The notes beneath the pieces were generated by a model, which saw only the letters and a list, made by a program, of their open reading frames with translations, was not told the DNA's origin and searched no databases. Positions 1,033-13,007 of a DNA stretch of 37,445 nt are shown piece after piece (the first letter of the stretch is position 1; each line of letters starts with the position of its first letter). Origin of the DNA: Flavobacteriales bacterium (GTDB lineage Bacteria; Bacteroidota; Bacteroidia; Flavobacteriales_D; Crocinitomicaceae); assembly GCA_015665275.1 (NCBI GenBank), contig JADFAL010000008.1, positions 96,104 through 133,548 on the forward strand, in the 5' to 3' direction. A program made the position numbers and the translations under genes.

Positions 1033-2996
1033 AAGTAAGTAACTGGAACGGTCGACCTGTGGTGGAAAATGCAACGCTGATTCCATTCGAAAAAGGAAAG
1101 CAAACTTCCTCAAATTCATGCCCGCGTGGAAACGGAAGAAGCTATGGAGATGCCTCTCTTCAACATACAATAATCGACTGTACCGAGAACAAAGAAACGC
1201 TGGAATTGAGCGATGATATCCTTGCCGCAAGTGCTGGTTTTACCGTTACTGATATTCTTAATTTTTGCATTCCTAAAGGATATATTTTACCTGTAATTCC
1301 GGGCACCCAACACGCAACAGTTGGAGGTATGATTGCTGCAGATGTACACGGGAAAAATCACGAGACTAACGGTACCATTGGACGCTGGATTACCTCGATG
1401 GAAATCCAAAACCAACAAGGTGAAATTGTTGTGTGCAGTCCGACGGAAAATGAAGAATTGTTTCAAATGACGATCGGAGGTTTGGGGCTCACCGGGATTA
1501 TTATTTCCGCAAAATTCAAGTTAAATTCACTTGATACGGTCACTTTTGAGCAAAATGTATCGAAACACCCGTCATTAGACGCACTCATTGAAGCGCTGGA
1601 TCGAAGTACTGCAAGTCACAAAACCGGTTGGTTCGATTTCTTCCAAATGGACGACTTTTTACTATTGGAAAATGCGCCAAAAAAAGACCAAACCATTCCA
1701 GCAGATTTTCAATTGCGAAAGGCCAAATGGAAGGTACCTTTTAAATCGCTTCCGTTCGTTCAACCCGCACTGATGAAAATCTACAACAAGCGGAATGCAC
1801 GTAACTTGCTCAAGCAAAAAAAGGAGGTACGCATTGATGACGTTTTGTTTCCGTTGGATTCCATTTCTAACTGGAATTATCTGTACGGTTCACGAGGATT
1901 CTACCAGCTGCAATTCTCTTTCCCAAAAGCAGACCTTTCCGATAAAATGAGAACTATTACACTAAAGATTTTGGAATCAAAATTTGTTCCGGTATTGGCA
2001 GTAGTAAAGAAACATGGAGAACTGAAATCTCCTGGAATTTTATCGTTTGTACAACCCGGTTATTCGTTCGCTTTTGACTTTGTCTACCGAAAAGGTTTGG
2101 TCGATTTTCTTCGAGAATTGAATGCTGAAATTGCCGATTTGGGAGGACGCGTGTATATGGTGAAGGATGCCGTAATAAACGGTGAAACTTTCGAGAAAAT
2201 GTATCCGGAATCGAACCATTTTAAAGAACGGCTTTCCAATTATAATGATGGATCGATGCAGTCACTTCTATCCAATCGCATTAACTTAACAACCAGCATG
2301 AATCAACGATTTTTGATTATTGGCGCTAACTCTGACATTGCTCAGGCCTGCATTCCGCACTTTGAGAAAAGTGGAGCGCAGTTAATTCTGGGGGCTCACA
2401 AACCCAATGATCTTCAAAACGGAAGTCATGAAGTGGTGGAGATTGACGTCACAAAACCGGAAGATGCCATTCAAAAAATAGAAGCCTTACAATTCGATGG
2501 CGTTGTCTATGCTGCTGGAAGTTTACCGGAAAATGAAGAAGCATTGTTTGGGGACCTTGCAGATCGTACCATGGCTGTCAATTATACCGGAGCGGTTCGT
2601 ATTCTCGGAGCGATCTCAAAGAAATTCATCGATCAGAAAAAAGGAACCATTGTAGGAATTAGTTCGGCAGGGGCCGTGCGCGGCAAAACGTCCAACATCG
2701 TATACGGATCAGCAAAAGGTGGATTTGATCATTACCTGGCGGGATTGCGACAGTACTTGCATCCGAAAGGCGTTCGCGTGGTCACCATTCGCCCAGGATT
2801 TGTTGCAACAAAGATGACCAAAGGACTGGATCTTCCCAAAAAGCTGACGGCTACATCCGATCAAGTGGCTAAAACGATTGTCAAACACGCGATGAAAGGC
2901 AATCGAAACATAGTATACACGAAACCGATTTGGCGTCCAATCTCTTGGATCATTAAAAACGTTCCAGAATTCATCTTTAAGCGAAAGCAGCTATGA
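1029..2996 (+). CDS. DprE1-DprE2 fusion: decaprenylphosphoryl-ribose 2'-epimerase, both subunits in one chain
   Basis: The 655-residue protein joins two enzymes that are normally separate. Residues 1 to about 422 are a DprE1-type FAD oxidase, with NGRSYGD at 35-41, the GGMIAADVHGKNH segment and a C-terminal VKDAV lysine motif. Residues 424-655 are a DprE2-type short-chain reductase with GANSDIA at 432-438 and the catalytic pair Y559/K563. DprE1 oxidises the 2'-OH of polyprenyl-phosphoribose to a keto intermediate and DprE2 reduces it to the arabinose epimer. No stop or extended linker separates the halves; an ATG at 2298 marks the old DprE2 start. The start at 1029 forms an ATGA overlap with the upstream gene; an ATG at 966 in the same frame would overlap it by 67 bp and is less likely. 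The position equivalent to mycobacterial Cys387 is Ala348. Confidence 0.88.
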   Translation: MKVSNWNGRPVVENATLIPFEKGKQTSSNSCPRGNGRSYGDASLQHTIIDCTENKETLELSDDILAASAGFTVTDILNFCIPKGYILPVIPGTQHATVGGMIAADVHGKNHETNGTIGRWITSMEIQNQQGEIVVCSPTENEELFQMTIGGLGLTGIIISAKFKLNSLDTVTFEQNVSKHPSLDALIEALDRSTASHKTGWFDFFQMDDFLLLENAPKKDQTIPADFQLRKAKWKVPFKSLPFVQPALMKIYNKRNARNLLKQKKEVRIDDVLFPLDSISNWNYLYGSRGFYQLQFSFPKADLSDKMRTITLKILESKFVPVLAVVKKHGELKSPGILSFVQPGYSFAFDFVYRKGLVDFLRELNAEIADLGGRVYMVKDAVINGETFEKMYPESNHFKERLSNYNDGSMQSLLSNRINLTTSMNQRFLIIGANSDIAQACIPHFEKSGAQLILGAHKPNDLQNGSHEVVEIDVTKPEDAIQKIEALQFDGVVYAAGSLPENEEALFGDLADRTMAVNYTGAVRILGAISKKFIDQKKGTIVGISSAGAVRGKTSNIVYGSAKGGFDHYLAGLRQYLHPKGVRVVTIRPGFVATKMTKGLDLPKKLTATSDQVAKTIVKHAMKGNRNIVYTKPIWRPISWIIKNVPEFIFKRKQL

Positions 2997-3586
2997 AAAG
3001 GGTGAAACTCGCCATATTGGATTTTGACGGCACGTTGTATCGCGGTGATTCTATGCGAGATTTTGCAAGGTTTGCAAACCCGATTCGCTATTATTTTTCG
3101 CTCTTAAAAATGCTTTTTTCTTACATCCAGCTGTTATCCGGGAATGCGTCTCGAAACGATCTGAAAGCGCTATTTCTCAAATACAATTTTGCGGGTTATT
3201 CAGAACAAGAGCTCAACGAAAAAGGGAAGAAATTCTACGATAAATATGTGAAGCGATGCTATCCTTCTGCCTTAGATTGGATCGCCAAGGAACAAAGGGA
3301 AAATACCAAGTTGTTGATTCTTTCCGGATCATGTCCACCATGGCTCCGACCTTTCTCAAGAGCTTTCGGTGCCGATTTGATATGCACAGAACTGGCATAC
3401 GAAAACGACTATTGCACGGGCGAGTGGATTGGAAAAAATATGACGGGCTACGCCAAGCGGGAAGCATTGGAGAACTATTTAAGTCAGCATCCAGAAATCA
3501 GTTATTCCATTGCACTGGGAGATCAGAAAAGCGATGCAATTGCCGGTGCCCTAGCCGATGAATACCATCAGAACTACTTTCATTGA
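2993..3586 (+). CDS. HAD-superfamily phosphatase (HAD-IB type)
   Basis: The 197-residue protein has the HAD motifs in order: DFDGT with nucleophile D10 and D12, motif II SGS at 111-113, a lysine near K155, and a motif III GDQKSD at 176-181. An inserted helical segment at about 30-90 resembles the cap of phosphoserine-phosphatase-like HAD-IB enzymes. The start overlaps the DprE fusion's stop as ATGA, so the two are probably translated together. A phosphatase is needed between the phosphoribosyltransferase and DprE1 to remove the 5-phosphate from polyprenyl-phosphoribose-5-phosphate. In mycobacteria that step is assigned to an unrelated PAP2-type protein. Its assignment to this HAD protein is inference from position only. 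Confidence 0.8.
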   Translation: MKRVKLAILDFDGTLYRGDSMRDFARFANPIRYYFSLLKMLFSYIQLLSGNASRNDLKALFLKYNFAGYSEQELNEKGKKFYDKYVKRCYPSALDWIAKEQRENTKLLILSGSCPPWLRPFSRAFGADLICTELAYENDYCTGEWIGKNMTGYAKREALENYLSQHPEISYSIALGDQKSDAIAGALADEYHQNYFH

Positions 3587-5127: not shown

Positions 5128-5160
5128 TTTGTTTATTAAAAATATTTGCACTTACCTTTG
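5128..5160 (+). promoter_or_regulatory. Bacteroidota-type promoter of the ilv operon
   Basis: TTTG at 5128-5131 and TACCTTTG at 5153-5160 match the -33 (TTTG/TTG) and -7 (TAnnTTTG) consensus, with a 21 nt spacer. Transcription should start within a few bases after 5160, so the first leader peptide ATG at 5168 would lie almost at the RNA 5' end. Confidence 0.7.
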
Positions 5161-5167
5161 TCCCGCA

Positions 5168-5230
5168 ATGAGCAACAAGAAAAACATTCAGTCTATTATT
5201 AACGTCGTGATTATTGATCGCAGACACTAG
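5168..5230 (+). CDS. ilv leader peptide 1 (Ile/Val-rich, 20 aa)
   Basis: The ORF encodes MSNKKNIQSIINVVIIDRRH. Five of 20 codons are Ile (all ATT) and two are Val, clustered at residues 7-16. It sits between the promoter and a strong terminator, ahead of the isoleucine/valine operon, as leader peptides of attenuators do. Its TAG stop at 5228-5230 overlaps the 5' arm of the proposed antiterminator. Ribosome stalling at the Ile/Val codons would leave that arm free, whereas a ribosome reaching the stop would cover it. There is no Shine-Dalgarno sequence, and the start is only about 7 nt after the -7 element. Confidence 0.85.
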   Translation: MSNKKNIQSIINVVIIDRRH

Positions 5231-5262
5231 GATGGACGTATATATATTTTGAAGAGCCATCC
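5230..5262 (+). promoter_or_regulatory. antiterminator of ilv attenuator 1
   Basis: GGATGG at 5230-5235 is complementary to CCATCC at 5257-5262, the 5' arm of the terminator that follows. The 11 nt CACTAGGATGG occurs at 5225-5235 and again at 5262-5272, so the upstream copy competes with the terminator's own 3' arm for the same partner. The arm starts at the last base of the leader peptide stop codon. Confidence 0.7.
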
Positions 5263-5280
5263 ACTAGGATGGCTTTTTTT
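5255..5280 (+). terminator. intrinsic terminator of ilv attenuator 1
   Basis: AGCCATCC (5255-5262) pairs perfectly with GGATGGCT (5267-5274) around an ACTA loop and runs into a seven-T tract ending at 5280. It lies in front of the operon it should control and downstream of a leader peptide, which marks it as an attenuator rather than an end-of-operon terminator. Confidence 0.88.
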
Positions 5281-5297
5281 ATGATTGAAACTTTAAG

Positions 5298-5360
5298 ATG
5301 AAAACATTAGCACTTAACATTATTGTCCTTGTCATTATTATTCCATTACCGCCATGGTGA
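5298..5360 (+). CDS. ilv leader peptide 2 (Leu/Ile/Val-rich, 20 aa)
   Basis: The ORF encodes MKTLALNIIVLVIIIPLPPW. It has four Leu, five Ile and two Val among 20 residues, with an unbroken run of eight branched-chain residues at 8-15. Unlike leader 1 it also contains leucine, so it can report on all three branched-chain tRNAs. Its TGA stop (5358-5360) lies within the 5' arm of the second antiterminator. The ATG overlaps the TGA of a six-codon ORF (5281-5301, MIETLR) as ATGA, which could feed ribosomes into it. The peptide ends in Pro-Pro-Trp next to the stop. Confidence 0.83.
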   Translation: MKTLALNIIVLVIIIPLPPW

Positions 5361-5400
5361 GATGAGGACTTTGTATATAATTCGTTCAGCCCTTCTCACT
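5356..5400 (+). promoter_or_regulatory. antiterminator of ilv attenuator 2
   Basis: GTGAGA at 5357-5362 pairs with TCTCAC at 5394-5399, extendable by a G-T pair at 5356/5400. This uses part of the 5' arm and loop of the following terminator, so the two structures exclude each other. The arm overlaps the TGA stop of leader peptide 2, the same arrangement as in attenuator 1. Confidence 0.62.
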
Positions 5401-5418
5401 CCGAGAGGGGCTTTTTTT
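5388..5418 (+). terminator. intrinsic terminator of ilv attenuator 2
   Basis: AGCCCTTCTC (5388-5397) pairs with GAGAGGGGCT (5403-5412) over 10 bp with one G-T pair and a five-base loop, followed by a run of seven T (5412-5418). The ilvE start lies 26 nt downstream at 5444. Confidence 0.88.
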
Positions 5419-5443
5419 ATGCCAAAAATCTAAACTAATATTT

Positions 5444-6334
5444 ATGTATTTCAACAATCAAACAACCATCTTTTTGGATGGAAAATGGACCAAAGCTGCC
5501 GAAGCAACGACGGACCTCTACACTCAAAGCCTTCATTACGGATCAGGTGTATTCGAAGGAATTCGAGCGTACAAAACCGAAGACGGCGCCAAAATATTTA
5601 AAGCCAAGGAGCACTTTGAACGTTTGCATTACTCGGCTAGGAAAATGCACATCAATCTTCCCTATTCCGTTGAAGAACTGGAGAAACTAAGCTATGAACT
5701 CTTGGTGCACAATCAGCTTGAGGACGCCTATCTGCGACCTTTGGTTTACCTAGGTCAGAATATGGCATTGCAACCTACAGAAGAAGTTCACGTAATGCTT
5801 TGCGCCTGGAGTTGGGATCGTTATTTGGGGGATCAACTGTTGCGTGTGAAGACCTCTTCCTTTCAACGTCCGAATCCGAAGTCATGTTTTGTTGAGGCAA
5901 AAGTAACAGGGCACTATACTAACTCCATACTTGCCACTACGGAGGCCAAGCAAAAAGGTTATGATGAAGCGCTCCTTCTTGACATGAACGGATTTGTAGC
6001 GGAAGGTCCTGGTGCGAATTTCTTCTACGAAAAAGATGATGTGCTTTACACTGCTCCTTTGGGCAACATCTTGGCTGGAATCACTCGACAAACCATACTG
6101 GAACTTTGCAATGAACTCGGTGTTGAATGCAGGGAAAAATTCTTCACTGCAGAAGATGTATACAATGCGGACAGTGCCTTTTTTACTGGAACAGCAGCCG
6201 AAGTAGCTGGAATTGCAAGCCTAGACGATCATACCTTTAACTTGAAATGGGAAGATTCCTTGGGTTATCAGTTGTCGCTCGCCTACCAAAATCGAGTACG
6301 CAAGAAGGAATACAAATTATTCGAACTGGTTTAA
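5444..6334 (+). CDS. ilvE: branched-chain amino acid aminotransferase
   Basis: The 296-residue class IV PLP aminotransferase interconverts Leu, Ile and Val with their 2-oxo acids, the last step of synthesis. The PLP lysine is K153 in [10 protein letters not shown]. Downstream are the family segments [12 protein letters not shown], the GITR phosphate-binding motif and FFTGTAAEV near the C-terminus. Length is normal for IlvE. ATG 5444 directly precedes the conserved N-terminus ([14 protein letters not shown]). It is the first structural gene after the tandem attenuators and is 10 nt from ilvD, so its expression should depend on read-through of both terminators. Confidence 0.95.
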
Positions 6335-6344
6335 ATCAACAAAA

Positions 6345-8021
6345 ATGGAATTGAACAAATTCAGCAAACGCATCACACAAGACGATTCTCAACCCGCCGC
6401 AAAAGCGATGTTGCATGCAATCGGACTAACAAAAGAAGATCTAAACAAGCCCTTTGTCGGAATTGCGAGCACCGGTTATGAGGGAAATCCATGTAATATG
6501 CACCTGAATGATCTCGCCAAGGAAGTAAAGCGCGGCACCATGAATGAAAATCTCGTGGGATTGATCTTCAACACTATTGGCGTAAGCGACGGAATTTCCA
6601 TGGGGACTCCTGGAATGCGTTACTCTTTACCATCGCGTGACATCATTGCGGATTCAATGGAAACGGTGGTCGAAGGAATGTCGTATGACGGACTTGTTAC
6701 GGTGGTTGGCTGTGACAAGAATATGCCCGGCGCACTCATTGCCATGCTCCGATTAAACCGACCAAGCGTGCTCGTATACGGAGGGACGATTTCGTCTGGT
6801 TGCCATGAAGGTAAGAAACTAGATGTAGTTTCTGCTTTTGAGGCATGGGGACAAAAAAACGCGGGTAAAATAAGTGAGACGGAATATCAAAATGTAATTG
6901 AAAAAGCGTGTCCGGGTGCAGGCGCTTGCGGTGGAATGTACACTGCGAACACTATGGCCTCAGCAATCGAAGCATTGGGAATGTCGCTCCCTTACAATGC
7001 GTCCAATCCAGCGCTGAGTCAGGAAAAAAGAGACGAAAGCGTGAAGGCTGGAGAAGCACTTCGAAAATTGTTGGAATTGGATCTCAAACCCAAAGATATC
7101 GTTACAAAGAAATCTCTGGAAAATGCCATCCGACTGGTCACTGTTTTGGGAGGTTCAACGAATGCAGTTCTTCATTTTTTGGCGATCGCGAACGCGGCGG
7201 AGATTGATTTCACTTTAGCCGATTTCCATCGCATTTCTGAATCTACGCCCTTCCTCGCCGACTTAAAACCAAGCGGGAAATACTTGATGGAGGATGTCCA
7301 CCAAGAAGGTGGGATTCCTGCGGTAATGAAATACATGCACGACCAGGGGATGCTTCATGGAGATTGCATGACGGTAACCGGAAAAACGATTGCGGAGAAT
7401 TTGGAGCTTGTCGAATCGCTATCTGACAATCAAGACGTAATTCGAAAGATCAGCAACCCAATCAAACCGAGCGGTCATTTACGCATACTTAGAGGGAACT
7501 TATCACCAGAAGGAGCCGTAGCAAAAATCACAGGCAAAGAGGGCTTACAATTTTCGGGTACGGCCAAAGTATACAACTCCGAATACGATGCAAATGATGG
7601 AATCAGTAAGGGAGAAGTCGTTCGTGGCGATGTGGTTGTTATCCGATATGAAGGACCAAAAGGAGGCCCGGGAATGCCCGAAATGTTGAAGCCAACCGCT
7701 GCCATAATTGGTGCGGGACTAGGGAATGACGTCGCTTTAATAACCGATGGCCGATTTTCGGGTGGGTCACATGGTTTTGTCGTTGGGCATATTTCTCCGG
7801 AGGCTCAGGTAGGTGGACCTATTGCACTCGTAAACGACGGAGATACAATCACCATAGATGCCGTTCAAAATACAATCACATTGGAGGTTACCGATGAAGA
7901 ACTAGACCGTCGAAAAGCACAATGGTCAGCTCCCAATTTAAAGTTTAATAGAGGCGTGTTGTACAAATACGCGCGTACCGTTTCATGTGCCTCTGAGGGG
8001 TGCGTAACAGATAATTTTTAA
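6345..8021 (+). CDS. ilvD: dihydroxy-acid dehydratase
   Basis: The 558-residue enzyme of the IlvD/Edd family dehydrates 2,3-dihydroxy-3-methyl acids to the 2-oxo acids of Val and Ile. Three cysteines at C50 (GNPCNMH), C123 (GCDKNMPG) and C195 ([14 protein letters not shown]) match the iron-sulfur cluster ligands of the [2Fe-2S] type. The C-terminal [19 protein letters not shown] segment carries the catalytic serine region. Length is that of the full enzyme. It is spaced 10 nt after ilvE and 9 nt before ilvB. Confidence 0.96.
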
Positions 8022-8030
8022 TTCGAAACC

Positions 8031-9749
8031 ATGGAAACTTTAGAGAAAAATCAAACCGATATCAAGCAATTAACAGGTGCACAAGCAGTAGTTCAATCTT
8101 TGATCGAGGAAGGCGTTGACCTGATTTTCGGTTATCCCGGTGGGGCTATCATGCCCGTCTATGATGCGCTTTATGATGTAGATGATCAATTAGAACACGT
8201 ACTAACACGTCACGAACAAGGAGCCATTCATGCCGCACAGGGATATGCAAGATCAACCGGAAAAGTTGGAGTCTGTCTCGCCACTTCCGGCCCTGGCGCC
8301 ACAAACTTAATCACTGGAATAGCAGATGCACAAATTGATGCAACACCCTTGGTTTGTATTACCGGGCAAGTTGCCAGTCATTTATTGGGAACCGATGCTT
8401 TTCAGGAAACTGACGTAATTGGCATCTCCATGCCTGTCACTAAATGGAATTATCAAGTAACCAAAGCTTCGGAAATTCCCAAGGCCATTGCAAAAGCATT
8501 TTACATCGCAAAATCAGGGAAACCGGGTCCCGTACTGGTGGACATCACCAAAGATGCTCAGTTCGAAGCAAGCAAATATCAGTATCAACCTTTCACGGGA
8601 ATGCGAAGTTATTTGCCGGCTCCCCAGTTGATGTCTAGCAAAGTAAAAGAAGCTGCCGACCTGATCAACGTTGCAAAACGTCCATTTGTTTTATTTGGAC
8701 AAGGCGTGATTCTTTCGCAAGCGGAAGCAGAATTCAAAGCATTTATTGAAAAAACCGGAATTCCCGCTGGATGGACAATCTTGGGACTTTCAGCATTGGA
8801 ATCGGATCATCCTTTGAATGTAGGAATGTTAGGCATGCACGGGAACTATGCTCCTAACAAACTTACAAATGAGTGCGACGTCTTAATAGCTATCGGCATG
8901 CGTTTTGACGATCGCGTAACCGGTAACTTAGACAAATATGCCAAACAAGCCAAGGTAATTCACTTGGAAATAGATCCTGCTGAGATAGACAAGAATGTAA
9001 AAACAGATGTTGCCGTACTCGGAAATGCAAAAGAGAGTCTCGAGGCGCTCACAAAGCTAGTGCACCCCAACCAACACTCTGATTGGCTGCAACGCTTTCG
9101 AACTTTGGAGCAGGAAGAGTACGAAGCTGTCATCCAAAATGAATTAGAGCCAAAAGAAGAAACGCTCACAATGGGCGAAGTCATCCACCAAATCAATAAA
9201 GCTTCAGATGGGAAAAATGTGTTTGTGACTGATGTCGGCCAACATCAAATGATTGCTTGTCGTTATGCGCGTTTCCTACAATCCAAATCAATGATTACTT
9301 CTGGCGGCTTGGGAACAATGGGGTTCTGCCTTCCGGCTGCTATCGGTGCAAAAATGGGCGTTCCAGATAAACAGGTAATTGGCATTATCGGTGATGGCGG
9401 ATTCCAAATGACACTTCAGGAATTGGGGACTATTTTTCAATCGAAAGTTCCAGTGAAGATTGTAGTGCTTAACAACGAATTCTTAGGAATGGTACGCCAG
9501 TGGCAGGAACTCTTCTTTGACAAACGATATGCCTCCACAATCATGGTCAATCCAGACTTTCAAACCATAGTAAAGGGATACGGTATTCAAACGAAACTGG
9601 TACAAGAACGCTCTGAATTGCAAAGCGCCGTGCAAGAAATGCTTGAATGTGAAGACGCCTATTTTCTAGAGGTTCGTGTTGGTAAAGAGAATAACGTTTT
9701 CCCTATGGTTCCAACGGGTGCTTCTGTATCTGAAATTCGATTAAAGTAA
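8031..9749 (+). CDS. ilvB: acetolactate synthase, large (catalytic) subunit
   Basis: The 572-residue ThDP enzyme condenses pyruvate with pyruvate or 2-oxobutyrate. The catalytic glutamate is E62 in TRHEQGAIHAA. The ThDP/Mg motif begins at GDGGFQM and ends in the LNNEFLGMVRQWQ segment in the C-terminal domain. The central domain (about 195-340) has the FAD-binding character of AHAS. It is followed after 4 nt by the regulatory subunit gene, so the two subunits should be made together. Confidence 0.95.
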   Translation: METLEKNQTDIKQLTGAQAVVQSLIEEGVDLIFGYPGGAIMPVYDALYDVDDQLEHVLTRHEQGAIHAAQGYARSTGKVGVCLATSGPGATNLITGIADAQIDATPLVCITGQVASHLLGTDAFQETDVIGISMPVTKWNYQVTKASEIPKAIAKAFYIAKSGKPGPVLVDITKDAQFEASKYQYQPFTGMRSYLPAPQLMSSKVKEAADLINVAKRPFVLFGQGVILSQAEAEFKAFIEKTGIPAGWTILGLSALESDHPLNVGMLGMHGNYAPNKLTNECDVLIAIGMRFDDRVTGNLDKYAKQAKVIHLEIDPAEIDKNVKTDVAVLGNAKESLEALTKLVHPNQHSDWLQRFRTLEQEEYEAVIQNELEPKEETLTMGEVIHQINKASDGKNVFVTDVGQHQMIACRYARFLQSKSMITSGGLGTMGFCLPAAIGAKMGVPDKQVIGIIGDGGFQMTLQELGTIFQSKVPVKIVVLNNEFLGMVRQWQELFFDKRYASTIMVNPDFQTIVKGYGIQTKLVQERSELQSAVQEMLECEDAYFLEVRVGKENNVFPMVPTGASVSEIRLK

Positions 9750-9753
9750 CAAC

Positions 9754-10278
9754 ATGAAAAAGAGATTTACCATATCCGTTTTTACGGAAGACGTAGTTGG
9801 GATTCTGAATCGCGTGACGATCATTTTCACCCGACGAAAAATAAACATTGAGAGCATCGCAGCTTCTGAAAGTGAAGTAGATGGAGTGCATCGATATACT
9901 ATTGTGATCACGGAGCAAGAAGATCTCGTGAAAAAAGTCGTGCTTCAACTTGAAAAGCAAGTCGAAATCATCAAAGCCGTATATCAACTAGATAAGGACA
10001 TTATCTATCAAGAAATAGCATTGTATAAAGTGCCAACGAATGTGTTGGCCAGCGGCGGAGAAGCGGAGAAAATCGTCAGAGCGCATTTCGCCAGAGTCCT
10101 GTCTGTAGAACCGGAATTCACTGTTTTGGAAAAAACGGGGCACAAGAACGAAACACAAGATCTGTTCAACGAACTGGAACCTTATGGGATATTAGAATTT
10201 GTGCGATCAGGACGCGTGGCTATAACCAAACCGATGAGAACCTTGAAATCAATTATTACCGAATTAGAAAACAATTAA
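9754..10278 (+). CDS. ilvN: acetolactate synthase, small (regulatory) subunit
   Basis: The 174-residue protein has an N-terminal ACT domain (about 3-78) with the pattern [24 protein letters not shown] and NIESIAAS, as in IlvN/IlvH. The C-terminal domain follows. The subunit activates IlvB and usually confers feedback inhibition by valine; feedback in this protein is inferred from the family. It is placed 4 nt after ilvB and 1 nt before ilvC. Confidence 0.93.
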
Positions 10279-10279
10279 A

Positions 10280-11755
10280 ATGAAGAACTATTACAACGCC
10301 TTGCCGCGTCAGAATCAACTAGAACAATTGGGGAAATGCGATTTCCTCGAAGCTGGCGAGTTTACTGAAGGAGTACAAGCATTATTGGGTAAAAATATTG
10401 TCATTGTAGGCTGCGGCGCTCAAGGACTTAACCAAGGATTAAACATGCGAGATTCAGGACTAAATATCTCATATGCGTTGCGAAAATCAGCCATCGATGA
10501 GCAACGCCCTTCCTATAAAAATGCGACGGACAATGATTTTCATGTTGGAACCTATGAGGAAGTAATTCCCACTGCAGATCTCGTCATAAATCTTACCCCA
10601 GACAAACAGCATACTTCGGTGGTTAGAGCTGTGATGCCTTTGATGAAGAAAGGTGCCACCCTGTCCTACTCTCATGGATTTAACATCGTGGAGGAAGGCA
10701 TGCAAATTCGCGAAGACATCACAGTTATCATGATGGCACCAAAATCACCGGGATCAGAGGTTAGAGAAGAATACAAACGTGGTTTTGGCGTTCCAACCTT
10801 AATTGCTGTGCACCCGGATAACGATCCAGAAGGAAAGGGTTTGGAAAGGGCAAAAGCTTATGCCTTGGCAACGGGAGGAGACCGTGCTGGTGTCTTGCTT
10901 TCATCGTTTGTTGCAGAGGTCAAATCAGATTTAATGGGAGAGCAAACCATCTTGTGCGGGGTTCTGCAAACGGCCTCGGTTCTTCTCTTTGATAAAATGG
11001 TTCAAGAGGGGCGAGACCCAGCATTCTCCGCAAAATTGATCCAGAATGGTTGGGAGGTAATCACCGAGGCTTTGAAGCAAGGTGGAATTACCGAAATGAT
11101 GGATCGATTGTCTGAGCCTGCTCAACTGAAAGCATCGGAAACTTCCGAGCGATTGAAAGTCTTGATGACGCCACTTTTCGAGCATCACATGGCAGATATT
11201 CTGTCTGGAAAGTTTTCAGAGCGGATGATGAAAGATTGGCAAAACGAAGATGCTGCACTTCTGACATGGCGTTATGAATCCAGCCAAACACCCTTCGAAA
11301 TGACGGAAGGATCAACCACGGATTTTCCATCACAATTCTACTTTGAGCATGGTACTTTGATGGTCGCATTTGTAAAATCTGGAGTCGAACTTGCCTTTGA
11401 AACCATGGTTGCGAACGGAATCAAGGAGGAGTCTGCCTACTATGAATCGTTGCACGAATTACCGTTGATTGCCAATACGATCGCCCGAAAGAAATTGTAT
11501 GAGATGAACCGTATCATCTCCGATACAGCAGAATATGGGTGTTATTTGTTCGATCACGCGTGTAAGCCATTACTTCGCGATTTCGTTATGCAATTGGATG
11601 CTTCGTTAATCGGTGAAGTTATCCATGGGAGTCGCCATCAGATCCAGTTTGAAATTCAGGCGCTTCATGAGCAGGTAGCCAATCATCCCATTGAATTAGT
11701 CGGCAAGAAACTGCGTGCTTCTATGACGGCCATGCAACACTTAATTACGGATTGA
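10280..11755 (+). CDS. ilvC: ketol-acid reductoisomerase, class II (long form)
   Basis: The 491-residue protein is the long, E. coli-like class II KARI, which isomerises and reduces acetolactate and acetohydroxybutyrate. The Rossmann motif GCGAQG lies at 44-49, followed by an ALRK...QRPSY stretch suited to NADPH. The magnesium-binding SDLMGEQT segment and a duplicated C-terminal knotted domain complete it. It is separated by 1 nt from ilvN and by 1 nt from ilvA. Confidence 0.96.
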
Positions 11756-11756
11756 T

Positions 11757-13007
11757 ATGCATACAAAAGTGAATTTAGAAAATGTACGAAAGGCCGCGTC
11801 ATCATTTGGTGACGTGGTCCTTCGGACTCCATTGATGCCGAACCACACACAATCACAAAAGTGGAAAGCGAATGTCTTTTTCAAACGCGAAGATTTACAA
11901 CAAGTGCGATCGTACAAAATTCGTGGGGCATATCACAAAATCAGCTCTCTGAGTAAGGAAGAGCTCAAGAATGGAGTCGTTTGCGCAAGCGCTGGAAATC
12001 ATGCTCAAGGGGTAGCTTTATCGTGCTCAAAAATGAGCGTTCAAGGAGTCATTTTTATGCCAACCCCAACGCCCAACCAGAAAGTCGAGCAAGTGAAAAT
12101 GTTCGGTGGATCCTTTGTTCGGGTGGAATTAATCGGAGATACGTTTGACGACGCGTCTGCTGCTGCTAAAGAATTTTCTCAAAGGAATGGCATGGCGTTC
12201 ATTCATCCTTTCGATGACGAAAAAGTGATTGAGGGCCAAGGAACGGTTGGATTGGAAATTTTAGACCAAGCTTCCTATCCAATTGATTATCTATTTCTTC
12301 CTGTTGGTGGTGGTGGCCTAGCTTCCGGAGTCTCAAGTGTGTTCAAATTGCTTTCTCCCGAGACCAAAATCATAGGAGTTGAGCCCATGGGAGCTCCTTC
12401 TATGTCCGAATCCATTACTAACCGAAAAAATACGCGTTTGGACGGAATTGAAAAGTTCATTGATGGCGCTTCTGTACAGATGGTAGGACAACGCAATTTT
12501 GAAATTTGTTCCGATAATCTGGATCAAATGGTCACCGTTCATGAAGGCAAGGTATGTCAAACAATTCTTGACTTGTACAACAAGGACGCATTAGTAGTAG
12601 AACCTGCCGGAGGTATGACAGTTGCAGTTTTAGATCAATTTCGAGAGCAGATTGCAGGGAAAAACGTGGTTTGTCTCATCAGTGGAAGTAACAACGATAT
12701 CACACGAACAGAAGAAATTAAGGAGCGTGCATTGCTTTATGCTGGACTGAAGCACTATTTTATCGTCAATTTCCCGCAACGACCTGGAGCCTTGAAGGAT
12801 TTTGTTTCACGCGTACTTGGAGAGGGCGACAACATTACTCATTTCGAGTATTCAAAGAAACACAACCGCAATTCCGGACCGGCAGTAATAGGATTGGAAA
12901 TTGGAAATGCCGATGACTTGAACTCTTTAAAAATGCGCATGAAAAATGAGGGATACGCATATCGATATTTGAACGATCAACCCGATTTATTTGAGTTCTT
13001 GGTGTAG
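11757..13007 (+). CDS. ilvA: threonine dehydratase (biosynthetic)
   Basis: The 416-residue fold-type II PLP enzyme makes 2-oxobutyrate from threonine, the entry to isoleucine. The PLP lysine is K54 in RSYKIRGAYHK. The glycine-rich phosphate-binding loop reads VGGGGLASG, and ISGSNND follows near residue 308. A C-terminal ACT-like regulatory domain starts near residue 330 (HYFIVNFPQRPGALKDF). The length fits the short IlvA with one regulatory domain, found in Bacillus and Bacteroidota. It is the last gene of the operon. No convincing terminator follows; GCCTAA/TTAGGC at 13021-13058 has no T-tract. Confidence 0.94.
   Translation: MHTKVNLENVRKAASSFGDVVLRTPLMPNHTQSQKWKANVFFKREDLQQVRSYKIRGAYHKISSLSKEELKNGVVCASAGNHAQGVALSCSKMSVQGVIFMPTPTPNQKVEQVKMFGGSFVRVELIGDTFDDASAAAKEFSQRNGMAFIHPFDDEKVIEGQGTVGLEILDQASYPIDYLFLPVGGGGLASGVSSVFKLLSPETKIIGVEPMGAPSMSESITNRKNTRLDGIEKFIDGASVQMVGQRNFEICSDNLDQMVTVHEGKVCQTILDLYNKDALVVEPAGGMTVAVLDQFREQIAGKNVVCLISGSNNDITRTEEIKERALLYAGLKHYFIVNFPQRPGALKDFVSRVLGEGDNITHFEYSKKHNRNSGPAVIGLEIGNADDLNSLKMRMKNEGYAYRYLNDQPDLFEFLV

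Follow-up and report, generated by a model that had tools for sequence, protein, structure and literature searches.

Why would an operon for amino acid biosynthesis be preceded by two attenuators that appear to answer to the same amino acids? The ilv, trp and his attenuators of enterobacteria consist of a peptide with control codons, an antiterminator arm close to where the peptide ends and a terminator followed by a U tract. The leader described here resembles them in that a peptide, an arm and a U-tract terminator lie ahead of a biosynthetic operon; however, enterobacterial leaders hold one such module, whereas two or three are found here for the same amino acids. The control amino acids also differ, Ile and Val here rather than Leu, Ile and Val, and the first peptide is probably almost leaderless, unlike that of the enterobacterial leader. 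Textbook peptide attenuators, such as those of the enterobacterial operons listed in PMC1183508, are single switches, and an ordered array for one signal invites us to ask what sharpness such a switch may attain.

In the window, by which we mean the whole stretch of 37,445 nucleotides that was analysed, positions 5168-5418 read as two complete leader-peptide attenuators in series, upstream of an ilvE-D-B-N-C-A operon (Table 1). The operon makes Ile and Val, which are the amino acids enriched in both leader peptides. The preliminary description had proposed a tandem pair within a 276-nucleotide leader, each unit comprising a 20-codon peptide, an arm overlapping its stop codon and a terminator with a T7 tract. 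We recovered all these elements, with 20 residues in each peptide and a leader length that matches 5168-5443. The hairpin of terminator 1 has the sequence AAGAGCCATCC-ACTA-GGATGGCTTTT (5252-5277; -17.7 kcal/mol, z -5.29) and that of terminator 2 the sequence AGCCCTTCTC-ACTCC-GAGAGGGGCT (5388-5412; -17.6 kcal/mol, z -5.35). A pattern scan of both strands between 4700 and 6000 returned four terminator-like sites versus a shuffle mean of 1.0, namely the two terminators, a site nested in terminator 2 and one on the minus strand. The 11-base sequence CACTAGGATGG is present in two exact copies, at the end of peptide 1 (5225-5235) and in terminator 1 (5262-5272), and the arm of module 1 thus duplicates part of its terminator. 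As for module 2, the core of its arm, GTGAGA (5357-5362), includes the TGA stop and can pair with TCTCAC (5394-5399). In both modules, the predicted upstream (1:2) hairpin would sequester the antiterminator arm. A spacer of 17 nt separates the end of the first T tract (5280) from the beginning of peptide 2 (5298). Identity with a leader of the Rfam collection was considered and rejected, as the search of the window returned no family at gathering score, the T-box fold included, and only sub-threshold matches to Phe_leader (RF01859; 24.0 and 17.4 bits for a gathering cut-off of 55). No NCBIfam model matched peptide 1 or peptide 2 at E 0.01.

Table 1. Features of the ilv leader and operon in the window (positions are those of the window)
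Feature	Position	Strand	Details and basis
Candidate -33 element TTTG	5128-5131	+	Sequence compared with the consensus (PMC7366714); weak alone
Candidate Bacteroidota -7 box TACCTTTG (TAnnTTTG)	5153-5160	+	Ends 7 nt before the peptide 1 start codon
Leader peptide 1 MSNKKNIQSIINVVIIDRRH	5168-5230	+	20 residues, stop TAG 5228-5230; present in relatives
Module 1 upstream (1:2) hairpin	5191-5237	+	5191-5197/5231-5237; inner helix 5204-5212/5216-5225; predicted fold
Module 1 antiterminator arm GGATGG	5230-5235	+	First base is the last of TAG; partner CCATCC 5257-5262
Module 1 intrinsic terminator	5252-5280	+	Stem 5252-5262/5267-5277, T7 5274-5280; pattern scan, fold
Leader peptide 2 MKTLALNIIVLVIIIPLPPW	5298-5360	+	20 residues, stop TGA 5358-5360; present in relatives
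Module 2 upstream (1:2) hairpin	5325-5369	+	5325-5341 with 5354-5369; predicted fold
Module 2 antiterminator arm GTGAGATGAGG	5357-5367	+	Includes the stop codon; partner 5390-5399
Module 2 intrinsic terminator	5388-5418	+	Stem 5388-5397/5403-5412, T7 5412-5418; pattern scan, fold
ilvE, branched-chain aminotransferase, first gene of the operon	5444-6334	+	TIGR01122 (NCBIfam) over cut-off
ilvD, dihydroxy-acid dehydratase	6345-8021	+	TIGR00110 over cut-off
ilvB, acetolactate synthase large subunit	8031-9749	+	TIGR00118 over cut-off
ilvN, acetolactate synthase small subunit	9754-10278	+	TIGR00119 over cut-off
ilvC, ketol-acid reductoisomerase	10280-11755	+	NF003557 over cut-off
ilvA, threonine ammonia-lyase	11757-13007	+	TIGR02079 over cut-off

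We propose, with a probability of about 0.87, that the leader would function as a series of two transcription attenuators of the ribosome-mediated type, each sensing the supply of charged Ile and Val tRNAs. Transcription would begin at the predicted start site near 5165, and a ribosome would load immediately on peptide 1. When Ile and Val are ample, this ribosome would reach the stop codon and mask the arm, letting terminator 1 form and ending the transcript near 5280. Under a shortage of Ile or Val, it would stall about 5-14 codons ahead of the stop, leaving the arm free to pair with the 5' half of the terminator, and the polymerase would continue. A fresh ribosome would next initiate at peptide 2 and the test would be repeated at terminator 2, with an end near 5418, such that ilvEDBNCA would be transcribed once both terminators have been passed. 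Such a series should act as a product, with a lower leak and a steeper response. What the comparisons establish, at the level of sequence, are the parts, their conservation, the pairing of each arm with its own terminator and a candidate promoter box that lies before the array and not between the modules.

To place this leader among others, we collected ilv leaders from named genome contigs (65 loci, of which 54 were used, the other 11 being distant or lacking upstream sequence) and from further genomes of the family, order and phylum, the latter stretches being picked to spread over families. We applied a strict detector to 205 of the 209 leaders, four being too short. It calls a module where a short frame ends 3-75 nt ahead of an intrinsic terminator and has seven or more Ile, Leu or Val among its 20 C-terminal residues. 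At least one module was found in 129 of the 205 leaders and at least two in 28: one in 101, two in 26, three in 2 and none in 76, the latter count not being evidence of absence since some operons may begin with another gene. One leader (L096) was scored as having a single module because its contig starts there. Among the reverse complements of the same leaders, two of 205 yielded one module and none yielded two, and no module was found in 615 shuffled leaders. When duplicate genome copies were removed by eye, 196 leaders remained, 25 of them with at least two modules and two with three; these 25 include L186, judged to be probably false owing to a long gap and weak pairing. Demanding an antiterminator of -8 kcal/mol or below reduced the multi-module leaders from 25 to 21 of 196 and left no reverse complement with any module (0/196). 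Some detected modules do have a poor antiterminator, for example those of loci L140-L155 and of Pedobacter leaders. L186 was excluded from the codon-content, control-zone and rank comparisons, and L158 from the rank comparison. Conversely, L005, L006, L017, L104 and L106, whose other module is below the threshold, were added by eye for the rank comparison and the tree, and are absent from the two-module set of the swap test.

Two-module leaders are present in the clade of the window, in L004, L005, L006 (Fluviicola), L044 (Aureitalea) and L069; module 1 of L005 and L006 falls under the strict threshold and was identified by eye. They are also found in relatives of Ulvibacter, Bizionia, Chryseobacterium, Reichenbachiella and Aureispira, and in several other families; Aureitalea sp. 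L0-47 and Reichenbachiella faecimaris are culturable examples. L124 and L159 have three modules in series. In L159, the peptides of modules 2 and 3 are nearly the same, MKTNSNIIIISIIIRSFE and MKTNMNIIIISIIIRSFE, which points to a recent duplication.

Over the 127 non-redundant modules, Ile accounts for 37-50% and Val for 8-25% of the residues found 5-13 codons ahead of the stop, and the last four codons (1-4) have little of either. As a ribosome stalled a few codons from the stop would cover the arm, the enrichment of Ile and Val observed at codons 5-14 is what control by stalling would require. An alternative is that the modules read different signals, the first Ile and Val and the second Leu or the general translation rate, as in the Salmonella mgtCBR leader, whose tandem short ORFs respond to ATP and proline signals and which was called a 'singular example' by its authors (PMC3641672). 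In support of this, Leu is commoner in last modules, with 37 versus 17 residues over 24 tandem leaders (last module higher in 12 leaders and lower in 4; p=0.017). However, within the stalling zone, codons 6-16 before the stop, the counts are 19 and 12, which is not a significant difference (p=0.12), and the average peptide has similar numbers of Ile and Val in non-last (6.15 and 2.27, n=26) and last modules (6.38 and 2.12, n=24). Judged by codon content, both modules carry the same Ile and Val control codons, and a difference in signals like that of mgtCBR is not apparent at this level.

The preliminary description had rightly noted that Leu codons are absent from the first module of the window and present in the second, where we count four, and had deduced an unequal weighting of leucine. 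The latter idea fared poorly: in addition to the control-zone result, the second peptide of the nearest relatives contains 0 to 3 Leu, and genes of the Leu pathway were not found in the genome of the window, whose completeness is 96%. No leuC was found over the family cut-off in that genome, with just two aconitase-length frames, whereas 9 of 14 control genomes have a leuC over it; the LeuA dimer domain was likewise not found, whereas all 14 control genomes have it. These results indicate that leucine synthesis is probably missing, and that the bacterium is probably a leucine auxotroph with a full Ile/Val operon. A leucine role for the second module is thus weak, and we regard two distinct signals as unlikely.

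The proposal of two attenuators in series for the same signal also implies that each module works as a switch of its own. We addressed this with a swap test, in which the arms of 127 non-redundant modules were paired with their own terminators and with those of other modules. Mean binding was -12.8 kcal/mol with the own terminator versus -8.3 kcal/mol with the others, and for 114 of 127 modules, the own terminator bound better than the others did on average (p=1.3e-20). In two-module leaders, both arms favour their own terminator in 23 of 23 cases, which argues that each module is a switch in its own right. Within the two triple leaders, duplicated modules are interchangeable, their cross-pairing being at least as good as their self-pairing. 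A similar swap of the 1:2 hairpins gave a weak signal, the own partner being better in 72 of 127 modules (p=0.003). In relatives, the tandem array is conserved and its arms are matched to its terminators. The alignment proposed in the preliminary description confirmed that both peptides, arms and terminators are kept in relatives, but not the covariation that was expected: in alignments of close relatives (A1, 10 rows; A2, 13 rows), the named pairs are mostly retained and their covariation does not exceed that of column shuffles, because the arms hardly vary at this distance.

Might one module alone regulate the operon, the other being a relic of duplication on its way to loss? The number of modules does vary. 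On an IlvD tree of 191 rows, whose details are unsure because 67 of them cover under half of the columns, the multi-module state requires 19 changes versus 26.5 in shuffles, with none of 500 shuffles as low. As judged from this tree, the multi-module state is clustered, with repeated gains or losses. Close relatives with a single unit have retained either type, some module-1-like and others module-2-like, and the near-identical modules of L159 testify to fresh duplication. In the single modules of L011 and L012, the terminator resembles that of module 2 and the peptide half is slightly nearer to module 1 (scores of 23.5 versus 22.5 and 23.0 versus 20.0 for module 1 and module 2); these are perhaps collapsed arrays. 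Nevertheless, in the clade of the window both modules have kept their peptide, the arm overlapping the stop codon and the terminator. Furthermore, a relic would be expected to drift, whereas first modules are nearer to foreign first modules than to the adjacent second ones. Thus, when each of the 58 modules of 28 tandem or triple leaders was compared with modules of other genomes, the rank of a module and that of its nearest foreign counterpart agreed in 50 of 54 cases, four with a middle module being left out. In none of the 26 two-module leaders does the adjacent module outscore the best foreign one, although two ties occur; the duplicated modules of the triple leaders do outscore it. By these scores, module order is inherited, and a single active module next to a relic appears quite improbable to us.

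Action in series further supposes that both modules are on one transcript. In Bacteroidota, the -7 box occupies positions -12 to -5 (PMC9723704) and a TTTG consensus lies at about -33 (PMC7366714). With the candidate box of the window placed at -12 to -5, the start site is predicted near 5165, leaving peptide 1 with a 5' UTR of about 3 nt and making it nearly leaderless. A spacing of 7-9 nt between the box and the first peptide is also found in L004, L044, L069 and L100, that of the others being 13-21 nt; by this measure, the first leader peptide is probably almost leaderless in the window and in these four. Comparably short 5' UTRs were reported for 5.5% and 3.7% of mRNAs in this phylum (PMC9723704, PMC7366714). 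Over the survey, a TAnnTTTG box ending 3-22 nt before the first detected peptide is present in 29 of 119 leaders, versus a mean of 2.9 and a maximum of 8 in 200 shuffles; most leaders have no perfect box. By the same rule, the box precedes 1 of 27 later modules. Reassigning by eye L104 and L106, whose first detected module is actually the second, changes these numbers to 27 first modules and 3 of 29 later ones. One of the boxes before a later module, that of module 2 in L159, includes the last base of a T tract and may be due to chance.

The modules could alternatively work in parallel from separate promoters. The genus g36 (L101, L104, L106 and L107) lends some substance to this idea, as a TAnnTTTG box lies 8-10 nt before the second-type peptide, which suggests a promoter between the modules in L104 and L106; action in series is therefore not universal. 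In the window, however, no promoter box was found in the 17-nt spacer and the box lies ahead of the array, in agreement with the series on one transcript initially put forward. Together with the rarity of boxes before later modules, this makes the parallel arrangement very improbable for the window. Lastly, AT-rich intergenic DNA does yield many short frames, and the detector gave four chance matches in the 233,300 bases (both strands) of 34 his, chorismate-binding and homoserine loci, but a chance association of hairpins and hydrophobic short frames was rejected as having a negligible probability given the near-empty reverse complements, shuffles and other loci and the conservation of order and pairing.

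The two-attenuator reading can now be compared with known leaders. The mechanism is that of the classical peptide attenuator, and what is new, within the open-access literature searched, is its stacking for one signal; this suggests that a well-known switch would have been stacked for tighter control. In that literature, we found no tandem peptide attenuator for amino acids, although the survey of bacterial attenuators by Lopatovskaya et al. (2010), which is outside that scope, may hold cases. The initial statement that no tandem case is described in Bacteroidota likewise holds within the open-access papers searched. The tandem peptide attenuators that we did find there, those of Salmonella mgtCBR, respond to two signals. 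As in mgtCBR, two short ORFs are in tandem within one leader; unlike mgtCBR, which controls a virulence and Mg operon, the leaders described here read one signal twice, precede an amino acid operon and occur in several families. Two leader peptides have also reportedly been studied for ermB, in that case with translational, antibiotic-induced control. The rimP leader of some Gammaproteobacteria has a second terminator in tandem (PMC2965389); it shares the two terminators, but the account given there does not describe it in terms of control by an amino acid leader peptide. Closer to home, leader-peptide attenuators at amino acid operons were described in Flavobacterium psychrophilum (PMC9723704) and short ORFs in long leaders in Bacteroides thetaiotaomicron (PMC7366714). 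These leaders belong to the same phylum and have the same promoter type, but are not known to include a tandem arrangement. The nearest parallel is found in Bacillota, where tandem and triple T-box riboswitches precede ilv operons (PMC12452182): as presented there, the target is the same, and like sensors are repeated in series in two and three copies. However, T-boxes bind uncharged tRNA, whereas sensing here would be performed by ribosomes on peptides, and we claim no homology.

Why, then, would the switch be stacked? A comparison with histidine leaders is informative. hisG was found in 30 of 120 genomes of the same order, and the corresponding leaders have one His-rich peptide before a terminator in 26 loci, none in 4 and two in 0, in a scan that asked for at least four His per peptide and would miss a second module with fewer. 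The genome of the window itself has a single His attenuator at its hisG locus (L230, contig C21), with the peptide MITTQLHHHHSNTCTQASVE and a terminator of -18.3 kcal/mol. Three other his loci (L237, L260 and L261) belong to genomes, G130, G176 and G112, whose ilv leaders have two modules by eye. The homoserine dehydrogenase locus and two chorismate-binding loci of the genome of the window yielded no recognisable attenuator in the scan. In a model of attenuation, the response to a declining supply is larger by a factor 1/f, where f is the usage frequency of the control codon (PMC1183508). Of the codons in 20 window genes, 7.2% are for Ile and 2.0% for His, so that a steeper response would be expected of a His switch. 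Placed one after the other, two switches would multiply their read-through and add their logarithmic gains. It is tempting to speculate that Bacteroidota stack one to three peptide attenuators for the same Ile/Val signal, keeping their rank order over long times and leaving his single, that stacking restores the steepness lost to common codons, and that the T-box layout of Bacillota is an independent solution. We advance this as a whole tentatively, as somewhat more likely wrong than right. The number of modules is not related to GC content, with medians of 0.392 in the multi-module (n=28) and 0.393 in the one-module group (n=90; p=0.69), and this test, albeit crude, gives no support to the codon-frequency idea.

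These leaders nevertheless offer a natural experiment, as related genomes have one, two or three copies of the switch before the same genes, and his has one in the same order. They also add, beside the tandem T-boxes, a second and apparently independent layout of repeated sensors at ilv operons.

Elsewhere in the window, a gene at 966-2996 encodes a 676-residue chain with an FAD-binding domain at its N-terminus and a short-chain dehydrogenase at its C-terminus. Flanked by a UbiA-type gene (163-1032) on one side and a HAD hydrolase gene (2993-3586) on the other, it presumably resembles a fusion of both subunits of a DprE1/DprE2-like epimerase.
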